From an uncultured Paracoccaceae bacterium (GTDB lineage Bacteria > Pseudomonadota > Alphaproteobacteria > Rhodobacterales > Rhodobacteraceae): DNA of 64,000 nt. The position numbers and the translations under genes were made by a program. The notes below the pieces were generated by a model, which was given only the letters and a program-made list of their open reading frames with translations, was not told where the DNA came from and ran no database searches. This document shows positions 7,317 through 59,110 of the stretch, piece after piece. The stretch is from contig CAKZTM010000032.1 of the NCBI GenBank assembly GCA_937920555.1, forward strand, positions 1-64,000. Direction: 5' to 3'. Numbering within the stretch: position 1 is the first letter of the stretch; every line of letters begins with the position of its first letter.

Positions 7317-7395
7317 TGGCCCGAAGGGACAGACTTATTCAGCGCCCCGAAGGGACAGTTTTGTTCAGTACCCTGAAGGCAGGGATTTACTCAGT
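7317..7395 (-). repeat. Three-copy 26-bp tandem repeat spanning the yajC stop and the yajC-secD spacer
   Basis: On the minus strand three direct units with a 26-base period follow one another, each starting CTGA and containing the core CTG(T/C)CCTTC(G/A)GGG. The first unit includes the yajC stop codon TAA; the second and third fill the rest of the spacer up to the secD Shine-Dalgarno. Units two and three are nearly identical (about 22 of 26), the first more diverged. Each unit has a small CCCTTCGGG-type hairpin, so the repeats could form a ladder of stem-loops in the mRNA. Confidence 0.8.
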
Positions 7396-7713
7396 TGGTT
7401 CGGTCTTGCTGAGAACATTCACAATCGTAGACTGCACAACACGCACTTTGACGCCGGATGCGATTTCCACCTCAACCTCATTGTCGTCTTTGACCTTGGT
7501 GACTTTGCCAATGAGACCGCCTTGGGTGACGACCTGATCGCCACGACGCAGCGCGGCAACCATCGCTGCATGTTCTTTCATCTTCTTTTGTTGGGGGCGG
7601 ATCATCAGGAAATACATAATCGCAAAGATCAGAATGATCGGAACGAAGCTCGCAAATCCGCCCATCGGAGAAGCCCCCGCAGCTTGTGCATAGGCAGGTG
7701 TCGCAAACAGCAT
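7387..7713 (-). CDS. yajC: Preprotein translocase subunit YajC
   Basis: Small Sec-associated inner-membrane protein of 108 residues. It begins with the alphaproteobacterial signal-like MLFATPAYAQAAG, then a single membrane helix (about 25-40) and the family signature FLMIRPQQKKMKEH, followed by the soluble domain with LRRGDQVVTQGGLIGKV. It is first in the yajC-secD-secF operon, and a plausible start region precedes it. The stop codon lies inside the first unit of the 26-bp tandem repeat. YajC interacts with SecDF and is dispensable in E. coli. Confidence 0.96.
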   Translation of the reverse strand: MLFATPAYAQAAGASPMGGFASFVPIILIFAIMYFLMIRPQQKKMKEHAAMVAALRRGDQVVTQGGLIGKVTKVKDDNEVEVEIASGVKVRVVQSTIVNVLSKTEPTE

Positions 7714-7848
7714 AAGTATCCCCTTTAGATAACCGTCAATTCAAGTGCGCGGACCCTATAGCTGGGCCGATTTGGATGCAAGACGCATGGCCCTGCTCAT
7801 GTCCATTTTTCAGTTAAGTTTCGGGTGGGCAAAATTCAATCTGATGTT

Positions 7849-7889
7849 GAAAAAGAAAATGGCCTCCCAGAAACACATCTGAGAGGCCA
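7849..7889 (-). terminator. Strong Rho-independent terminator without an upstream gene
   Basis: On the minus strand a 12-bp stem (TGGCCTCTCAGA with TCTGGGAGGCCA, one G-T pair) and a 6-base loop occupy 7860-7889, followed by TTTTCTTTTTC. There is no annotated gene before it on that strand, which is why a small RNA is proposed. Confidence 0.9.
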
Positions 7890-8100
7890 CTTGTAGCAAA
7901 GTAACTGGCCAACATACCAGCACAGAAACTCGCTCCCTGCGTTGAGATTTAGTGCTAAGCCCCCGCTCGCACTAGTCGCATCAAGTACCAACGCTTGAGC
8001 AAAGCCTCCACATTGGTAGCCGGGTCCGAACAAACCGCTCCGGGAAAAACATGGCCATGTCCGACCGCTCACCGTTACGGTAAGAATCCCATCTTACCCA
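7849..8100 (-). ncRNA. Candidate structured small RNA, unassigned family
   Basis: No credible coding sequence occupies 7714-8416, yet the minus strand shows a complete transcription unit: a sigma70-type promoter just upstream, several stable hairpins, and a strong terminator. Hairpins include GGTAAG...CTTACC at 8079-8098, ACCAATG...CGTTGGT (roughly 7984-8014) with an inner GAG/CTC, and TAGTGC...GCACTA (roughly 7951-7975). A very short frame starting TTG after a GGAGG (LLKRWYLMRLVRAGA) is a possible encoded peptide, but is unproven. I could not match it to 6S RNA, SRP RNA, RNase P or tmRNA. The transcript would be about 250 nt. Confidence 0.55.
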
Positions 8101-8105
8101 CATTT

Positions 8106-8134
8106 ACCCTACAAAAATGGGACTGAAATTTCAA
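8106..8134 (-). promoter_or_regulatory. Predicted sigma70-type promoter for the candidate small RNA
   Basis: Minus-strand TTGAAA (8129-8134), a 17-base spacer and TAGGGT (8106-8111). Transcription would start near 8100, just ahead of the GGTAAG/CTTACC hairpin. The surrounding 8100-8260 stretch is markedly A+T-rich compared with its neighbours. Confidence 0.5.
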
Positions 8135-8416
8135 ATGGAGAATATTCCCAATGAGACAAATTTCGCTGATTTAATAAGTACCGCCAAGGTAATGAAATTT
8201 ATGTTTAATCTGTCCTTGTTAATAACCTGTTAATAATTAAGGCAAAATTAAGGCAGCTTGAGCGCGTAAAAAATACACACGAAAAACGACTCGCCCTTAA
8301 CTTGAAAAGTGACCCTTCGATTCATCCGCGCTATCGTTCCGGCCACAATCTCACATTGCCCAGCCCCACCAAATGGCGCATAAACCGCGCAAATTTATCA
8401 TACCGGACCTGACCCC

Positions 8417-9706
8417 ATGCACGACATTCGCCTGATCCGCTCCAACCCGGACGCTTTTGATGCAGCACTTGCCCGCCGTGGAGAAGGCCCGCGCGCGCAA
8501 GAAATTTTGGCCATTGATGAGAGCAGGCGCGCCAAGATCAAGGCGTCCGAAGGCGCGCAGGCGGAGCGCAATGCTGCCTCCAAGCTGGTGGGAGCCGCGA
8601 AAGCTTCTGGCGATGAGGCGGAGTTTGAGCGTCTACGCGCTTTGGTGGCGTCCAAGAAAGATGAGCAGGCCGCACTAGAGGACGCCGTGAAGGCGGAGGA
8701 AGCCCGGCTGACTGGCCTTTTGGAAGTGCTCCCAAACAGCCCCTATGACAGCGTGCCAGACGGTGCGGATGAGGCCGACAATGTGGAGATCAATCGCTGG
8801 GGCAATCCGCGCAATTTCTCATTTACCCCAGTTGAGCATTTTGAAGTGCCTGCGGCAGCGGCGGGATTGGATTTTGAGACGGCGGCGAAAATCTCAGGCT
8901 CGCGTTTTGTGGTAATGAAAGGTGCTATGGTCCGTCTACAGCGGGCATTGGCGCAGTTCATGCTTGATACGCATATTACAAAGCATGGTTTGACGGAAAC
9001 CTGGGTGCCGGTGATCGTGCGGGACGAAGCCATGTACGGCACCGACAAGCTGCCCAAGTTCGGTGAGGACAGCTATCAAACCACAAATGGATGGTGGTTG
9101 ATCCCTACATCTGAGGTGCCGCTCACCTATACGGTTGCAGGCGACATCCTAAGTGATGCGGACTTGCCCATTCGCATGACCGCCCATTCACAATGTTTCC
9201 GCTCCGAGGCTGGATCTGCCGGCAAGGACACCACCGGCATGCTGCGTCAACACCAGTTTGAGAAGGTTGAAATGGTGTCGATCACCAAGCCCGAGGATAG
9301 CGATGCGGAATTGGAGCGCATGACCAAATGCGCTGAAGGCATTCTTGAGGCGCTCGACCTGCCCTACCGGACCGTTGTTCTATGCACAGGTGATATGGGG
9401 TTTGGCGCCCGGCGCACTCATGATATCGAAGTTTGGCTCCCCGGCCAGAACACGTACCGGGAGATCAGCTCGTGCTCCACAACCGGTGATTTTCAGGCCC
9501 GCCGGATGAATGCCCGCTTTCGCCGCGCAGACGGCAAACCGGAATTCGTTCACACTCTGAATGGCTCCGGCCTTGCGGTCGGACGGTGTTTGATCGCTGT
9601 GGTTGAGAATTATCAGCAAGAAGATGGCTCGATCACCATTCCGGCTGTTCTTCAGCGCTATATGAGCGACGCACAGACCATTAGCACGGATGGGCAATTG
9701 ATCTGA
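8417..9706 (+). CDS. serS: Serine--tRNA ligase
   Basis: Charges tRNA-Ser (and tRNA-Sec) with serine in the cytoplasm. The 429-residue protein has the N-terminal antiparallel coiled-coil arm (about 1-105, [18 protein letters not shown] onward) that holds the long variable arm of tRNA-Ser, then the class II catalytic core: motif 2 in [21 protein letters not shown] (about 265-285) and motif 3 in [20 protein letters not shown] (about 380-400). Length and start match the family. It is monocistronic here, preceded by a gene-free region. Confidence 0.98.
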
Positions 9707-58100: not shown

Positions 58101-58966
58101 AGGTGCAATTGCCCTGACATTAACACGACGCCGCACCCACCGACTTTGACGCCGGTGATGGCATCCCTTGCGCCCAAAACCTCAACATGCGCAGTACCGG
58201 GACGCCCCAGCCAATGACCCTGCTCCGCCACGAAGTTGGGCACGTCAATCAGTCCCTTTGACCACAGATAGGCGGCCATACATCCAGTGGCCGAGCCAGT
58301 AAATGGATCCTCCGCCGGCATTGGTGGTGGCAGTAACAACCTCGAAAACGTATCCCCGCCATCCACACCGCCCAAACATACCAAAAACGGTTCCATCAGC
58401 TCCGATTGTGCGATGCCGCCCTGTGCGCGCCAAGCCATCAGAGCGTCAGGATCCAGCACCGCTCTTCGCAAAGCATCCTTGGATTTTACAACCGTGATGC
58501 AAAAGGGCGTGCCCGTCGACACAACCTGCGGCATTCCGATAATATCCGCAGCGTCCAACCCATAAATTCGCGCGATCACCTCTGGCGAATAATCCTGCAA
58601 AAACTCAGGTGCCGCTTGGGTCATGGTGATCTGACCATCCGCGAGTTCTATGGGTAAGACACCCGCGCCAACCTCTAGTGTGAAGGTACAATTGCGCGAT
58701 ACCATTCCGCGCTCGACCATCGAGGTGACAGTGGCCACTGTAGGATGCCCGGCCATCAAAATCTCGCGCTCAGCAAGGTAATACCGCGCCCCAAAATCCG
58801 CCACTTCGGACGACACAACGTAAGCACATTCCGACAAGCTGGTCTCGCGCACCAGCGCCAAACGATCCGAAACGGCCAGGTGATCGGCTCCGTGAACCAC
58901 CACACAGGCATTGCCGCCGAAGGGTCGCTCGGTGAACGCATCCACCCAGTCAAATTCGTATCCCAA
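58097..58966 (-). CDS. PhzF family phenazine biosynthesis-like protein
   Basis: A 290-residue protein of the PhzF/diaminopimelate-epimerase fold, read from the TTG at 58966, which has GGGAGGG four bases upstream; the ORF extends to 58990 with no ATG. Landmarks are ERPFGGNACVVV (about 12-23), the catalytic Glu in TSLSECAYVV (about 41-50), LMAGHPTVATV, TQAAPEFLQDY and DPFTGSATGCMAAYLW (about 220-235). PhzF members isomerise small metabolites; no phenazine genes are here, so the substrate is unknown. Its stop overlaps the convergent HMG-CoA reductase stop by four bases. Confidence 0.88.
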   Translation of the reverse strand: MGYEFDWVDAFTERPFGGNACVVVHGADHLAVSDRLALVRETSLSECAYVVSSEVADFGARYYLAEREILMAGHPTVATVTSMVERGMVSRNCTFTLEVGAGVLPIELADGQITMTQAAPEFLQDYSPEVIARIYGLDAADIIGMPQVVSTGTPFCITVVKSKDALRRAVLDPDALMAWRAQGGIAQSELMEPFLVCLGGVDGGDTFSRLLLPPPMPAEDPFTGSATGCMAAYLWSKGLIDVPNFVAEQGHWLGRPGTAHVEVLGARDAITGVKVGGCGVVLMSGQLHL

Positions 58967-59031
58967 TGTACCCTCCCGTCCAAAGCCCAAACAGAGTGTC
59001 TCGCGAAACGCCTGCCAGCTCCAGCGCGTTT

Positions 59032-59085
59032 TTGTGCCGGATACAAAGCCGGCACAATTCTACTCTTCTAGAAATGTAGAAGAGT
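59032..59085. repeat. Two adjacent perfect inverted repeats upstream of the PhzF gene
   Basis: First IR: TTGTGCCGG (59032-59040) with CCGGCACAA (59049-59057), 8-base gap. Second IR: ACTCTTCTA (59062-59070) with TAGAAGAGT (59077-59085), 6-base gap. Both arms are 9/9 complementary and just four bases apart. They lie between the holin stop and the PhzF start, so may be operators, or a paired RNA structure ending the upstream transcript. Neither has a following T-run. Confidence 0.6.
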
Positions 59086-59110
59086 GGAACACCTCCATGA
59101 CCGGTACCAA

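Follow-up and report, generated by a model that had tools for sequence, protein, structure and literature searches.

The spacer between the divergent genes yajC and serS of this uncultured Paracoccaceae bacterium raises a simple question: does it contain a transcription unit of its own, or only the upstream regions of its two neighbours? A sequence-only reading of the 64,000-nucleotide stretch analysed here (hereafter, the window) had proposed that an orphan structured RNA, with its own promoter and terminator, is encoded there on the minus strand. In our analysis the orphan unit is supported by sequence statistics, by the absence of an Rfam match and by searches in which no homologue was found, and the locus stands an even chance of being a stand-alone, lineage-specific small RNA (sRNA) gene located on the minus strand between two divergent promoters.

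The yajC-serS spacer

The locus comprises the candidate unit and its two neighbours:

7849 to 8134, minus strand: candidate sRNA transcription unit, with promoter and terminator and no credible open reading frame
7387 to 7713, minus strand: yajC, the downstream neighbour, an open reading frame; 80 relatives were found to carry yajC
8417 to 9706, plus strand: serS, the divergent neighbour, an open reading frame with a match in 58 of the 61 genomes searched, its own included

In this genome the divergent genes are separated by 703 bp. For the comparison of the locus we used 80 named genomes found through yajC (L056 to L135): the spacer measures at most 560 bp in 34 of them (median 178 bp, our own count from the list), the gap is larger in 23 and serS is absent from the locus in another 23. 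By eye, a GGCATAA-like element close upstream of serS is kept among the relatives, its version in the window being GCGCATAA. Since this element is retained before serS, the extra DNA, roughly 500 bp, seems to have been placed between two old promoters, those of the divergent yajC and serS.

None of the 34 relatives with a compact spacer carries a promoter plus terminator upstream of the yajC promoter. Terminator-like hairpins weaker than that of the window occur in the spacers of L071 (-13.5) and L128 (-11.0), a second, weaker promoter-like site (12.8) is found in the spacer of L076, and seven of the 34 compact spacers, as cut, hold no promoter scoring at least 8. The compactness of the spacer in these relatives is in keeping with the main rival explanation, a spacer without function in which gained DNA holds a promoter that arose by chance or is decaying, together with a left-over terminator, and would support, at most, idle transcription. 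We regard this explanation, which is the main rival because nothing shows selection, as possible but doubtful.

Imperfect 18-nt inverted repeats (78%) are present at 7801-7818 and 8296-8313, near the edges of the extra DNA, and possibly arose by chance. The inserted element that they suggest was rejected, as neither a second copy nor, by eye, a target duplication was found. A mobile origin was likewise discarded: the RNA stretch is present as a single copy in its own genome, it has no match among plasmids and phages, and three pieces of it, of 20-24 bases, are absent from viral contigs.

Where the spacer is AT-rich (34% GC) it also contains two TTAA-N7-TTAA sites at 8219-8251, 3 bp apart and the only two in the window, which we take to resemble CtrA boxes. 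The idea of CtrA control was set aside, since TTAA-N7-TTAAC is not enriched genome-wide (25 occurrences vs 36 for the reversed control); such a site occurs in two of 86 other serS upstream stretches, some of which represent the same genome twice.

Promoter of the candidate RNA

A generic scan for promoters of the E. coli type found none between 7000 and 9200, so the promoter form of this bacterial family was examined through the upstream regions of yajC in the relatives. Two sites on the minus strand are relevant here:

8106 to 8134, minus strand: predicted sRNA promoter, TTGAAA (8134-8129), a 17-nt spacer and TAGGGT (8111-8106), rank 2 with the family matrix
7753 to 7781, minus strand: separate yajC promoter, TTGCAT-17-TAGGGT, rank 1 in the window, conserved in relatives, 39 nt before the yajC ATG

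The yajC promoter of the relatives is tightly conserved and has the form TTGC.. - 17 nt - TAGGKT, with a spacer of 17 nt in 78 of the 80 best yajC-upstream sites; its -10 box deviates from the E. coli consensus. The promoter matrix was built from the 75 of the 80 relatives' sites with at least 9 of the 12 bases of TTGCAA / TAGGGT. Its consensus was picked by eye from these upstream regions, five weaker rows were excluded, and no sequence of the window entered it.

Scanning the window with this matrix (383,826 positions) placed the window's own yajC promoter, which serves as positive control, first and that of the candidate RNA second. The minus-strand promoter described by the sequence-only reading is confirmed in its letters and spacing. 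In 60 shuffles of the window, sites as good as the RNA promoter are expected 0.57 times per 64 kb, a figure that, like the empty E. coli-type scan, weighs against the sRNA gene; when the 703-bp spacer was shuffled, an equal site arose on the same strand in 25 of 2000 shuffles, and one with a spacer of 17 in 9 of 2000. A local chance of about 1% is not negligible across the many spacers scanned, which lends weight to a functionless spacer. Against that explanation, promoter and terminator each rank second among their kind over the 64 kb, and they are correctly ordered, with about 250 nt between them.

The pattern TTG-N20-TAGGKT occurs 17 times genome-wide, vs 77 times for the reversed control. 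Several of these sites fall within long frames, and six, yajC included, are each followed, 6-39 nt downstream, by an ATG frame of 80 codons or more (L142, L147, L148, L150, L151 and L156), which marks TTG-N20-TAGGKT as a working promoter type. The site before the RNA is a good instance of that type, though it may have arisen by chance.

Terminator and predicted fold

The unit would end at the following hairpin:

7849 to 7892, minus strand: intrinsic terminator, a 13-15-bp hairpin with a T-rich tail, second of 101 candidates in the window

The sequence-only reading had described a 12-bp terminator; the terminator is present, but its stem is longer, with 13-15 pairs at 7892-7857 (-23.5 to -25 kcal/mol) and a T-rich tail extending to 7849. 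Among the terminator-like hairpins of the window, the only one ranking above it has a poor tail (ATTTGGTTTT). The terminator is oriented to the minus strand, where other genes have no need of one.

Together, promoter and terminator delimit a predicted transcript with the following features:

7849 to 8099, minus strand: predicted non-coding RNA of about 250 nt, its ends deduced from promoter and terminator, single copy in the genome
8079 to 8098, minus strand: 5' hairpin GGTAAG/CTTACC, seen in the MFE and centroid folds

The three hairpins named at the outset (GGTAAG/CTTACC, ACCAATG/CGTTGGT and TAGTGC/GCACTA) are all present in the sequence, and the centroid fold contains them too. In this respect the description of several clear hairpins is borne out, but folding beyond chance is not. 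The minus strand of 7849-8105 folds with a z of -3.63 (0 of 200 shuffles as good), and the opposite strand of the same stretch reaches -4.22. Once the terminator is removed (7893-8107, minus strand) the z falls to -1.44, with 26 of 300 shuffles as good, and without the 5' hairpin as well (7893-8080) to -0.47, with 94 of 300. Therefore, the good fold score comes from the terminator, structure beyond it is not supported, and the named hairpins are not evidence for a selected fold. An ordinary fold without the terminator is also what a functionless spacer would show.

When 852 strand-stretches of 150 nt were tiled over the window, the best of this locus (7801-7950, minus strand, with the terminator inside) ranked 26th. 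Over the whole window, the 150-nt stretch with the best fold is 58951-59100 on the plus strand (z -6.25, 40 shuffles).

Coding potential

The claim that no credible gene exists between yajC and serS agrees with our search, in which six small frames gave no Pfam match near the cut-off. Even so, the predicted transcript holds two open frames, one of 40 aa at 8103-7981 and one of 15 codons at 8002-7955 that begins with TTG after a GGAGG, and either could make the RNA the messenger of a small protein. We consider such a messenger quite improbable. The ATG of the 40-aa frame lies only 3 nt past the -10 box, ahead of the expected RNA start, and its matches are weak and scattered (22 of 60 other genomes at a limit of E 1, best E 0.041). 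As for the 15-codon frame, which had been put forward as a possible leader peptide, the frame after the GGAGG does exist, but positive evidence for that role was not obtained: its start is TTG, and yajC has its own promoter.

Known RNA families and homologues

The first reading could not match the RNA to 6S RNA, SRP RNA, RNase P or tmRNA, and the Rfam check that it suggested, when run, left this unchanged, returning only matches far below the cut-off. Within the window, none of 4227 families reached its gathering score. Relaxing the limit to E 10 gave three matches, all of them including the terminator; with the terminator left out, a single CRISPR-repeat match on the other strand remained (E 8). 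A diverged member of a known family (6S, SRP RNA, RNase P, tmRNA or a plasmid antisense RNA) would be compatible with the length and layout of the unit and with a weak ctRNA_p42d match over the terminator hairpin (20.3 bits, E 0.14). Given these Rfam results and a 6S candidate located elsewhere in the genome, we disfavour this explanation as very improbable.

That likely 6S RNA lies at L002 1501-1659 (G000 contig C41) and scores 41.6 bits, the Rfam cut-off being 46.4. Its locus has no good TAGGKT promoter; the best score there is 7.5, at a site that is not before the RNA.

Searches for homologues were made in genome sets in which the own genome is the only member of its genus. At the DNA level, none of 60 other relatives has a match at E <= 0.001, nor does any genome besides the own in the family set (394 genomes, own included), where 20 other genomes match 18-35 nt at E 0.01-0.1, scattered along the query. 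The class set (385 genomes with the own one counted) yielded an exact match of 21 nt in a single other genome, G572; its E of 6.5e-4 per genome is about what chance would give over 385 genomes.

A covariance model built from the single RNA sequence (R1) gave seven matches at E <= 5 over the window plus the 80 loci: the RNA itself, 1502-1583 of the window (32.7 bits), L112 (E 0.018) and short pieces in L064, L065, L096 and L107 (E 0.55-2). We rejected the L064 and L065 pieces as homologues and count them as chance: each is a GC-rich hairpin of 25 nt, about 350 bp upstream of yajC. Over 149 family genomes R1 found one other match at E <= 1, and over 39 genomes, own included, it matched in three others; this genome search can miss matches, since the 32.7-bit match in the own genome was not listed there, though the direct search found it. 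The matches in L112 and L138 align mainly across a terminator, and in L137 and L139 the matched part is a short internal hairpin. In these searches, then, R1 found terminators and short hairpins elsewhere and nothing resembling the whole RNA.

The second match within the window, 1502-1583 on the minus strand, is a strong two-hairpin terminator, to which R1 corresponds as a model of the candidate's own terminator. The frame ahead of it is presumably superoxide-dismutase-like.

As no homologue was found in these genome sets, there was no alignment to show conservation or covariation, and hence there is no sign of selection on the candidate RNA. The lack of a homologue in any search is what a functionless spacer would predict.

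Relation to yajC

The candidate lies on the same strand as yajC and its terminator precedes that gene by about 140 nt. In this regard, the RNA might be the terminated form of a long, attenuated yajC-secDF leader, with read-through feeding yajC, perhaps under the control of a short leader peptide, for which the 15-codon TTG frame after the GGAGG would be the candidate. Such a layout is known from UpsM (RSs0682) of Rhodobacter sphaeroides, a 206-nt sRNA that arises from termination within the 268-nt mraZ leader (PMC5089854). There mraZ is reported to lack a separate start, and the UpsM layout to occur across the family (PMC5089854).

Judged by the names of the relatives, our candidate belongs to the same bacterial family, and it shares with UpsM an end at an intrinsic terminator a short way ahead of a conserved gene cluster, with an sRNA of 206 nt before mraZ in one case and a predicted one of about 250 nt before yajC-secDF in the other. 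Unlike mraZ, however, yajC appears to keep a conserved promoter of its own, located downstream of the RNA terminator, between it and the yajC ATG. Whereas the UpsM layout is reported family-wide, the unit described here is found in one genome and in none of the 34 compact relatives. The position of the conserved yajC promoter makes the candidate unlikely to be a yajC leader, and we hold that explanation to be improbable overall. Read-through from the RNA unit could nevertheless add to yajC expression.

A model for the candidate RNA

Our preferred reading remains the stand-alone sRNA gene. RNA polymerase carrying the housekeeping sigma factor would start near 8099 from TTGAAA-17-TAGGGT and make a non-coding RNA of about 250 nt, and transcription would stop at the intrinsic terminator near 7850. 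As yajC has its own conserved promoter past this terminator, the RNA is expected to stop about 70 bp short of the following unit, ahead of the yajC promoter. The RNA would most likely be a trans-acting regulator that base-pairs with its targets by means of its U-rich tail and Hfq; a U-rich tail of this kind fits Hfq-dependent base pairing.

An orphan of this kind would not be unusual. Sixteen sRNAs have been confirmed in Paracoccus denitrificans, 50% of them reportedly without conservation in related bacteria (PMC5107571), which suggests that orphan sRNAs are ordinary in this bacterial family. Like the species-specific sRNAs described there, the candidate is intergenic and lacks sequence conservation; the P. 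denitrificans sRNAs were detected by RNA-seq and verified with RT-PCR (PMC5107571), whereas ours is predicted from DNA alone.

A far bolder idea is that a newly arisen, lineage-restricted regulatory RNA lies between the divergent promoters that serve seryl-tRNA synthetase and the Sec operon (yajC-secDF), and that, in this lineage alone, its product or the act of transcribing it couples secretion to translation. We consider this highly unlikely. Our literature search found no paper that combines yajC, serS and an sRNA.

Beyond the candidate itself, the tightly conserved yajC promoter (TTGC.. - 17 - TAGGKT) may help to spot promoters in these genomes where a scan with the E. coli consensus finds none. 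If expressed, the RNA would add one more lineage-specific sRNA gene to the Rhodobacteraceae and be a clear example of a transcription unit appearing in a spacer between housekeeping genes, one that many relatives keep compact.
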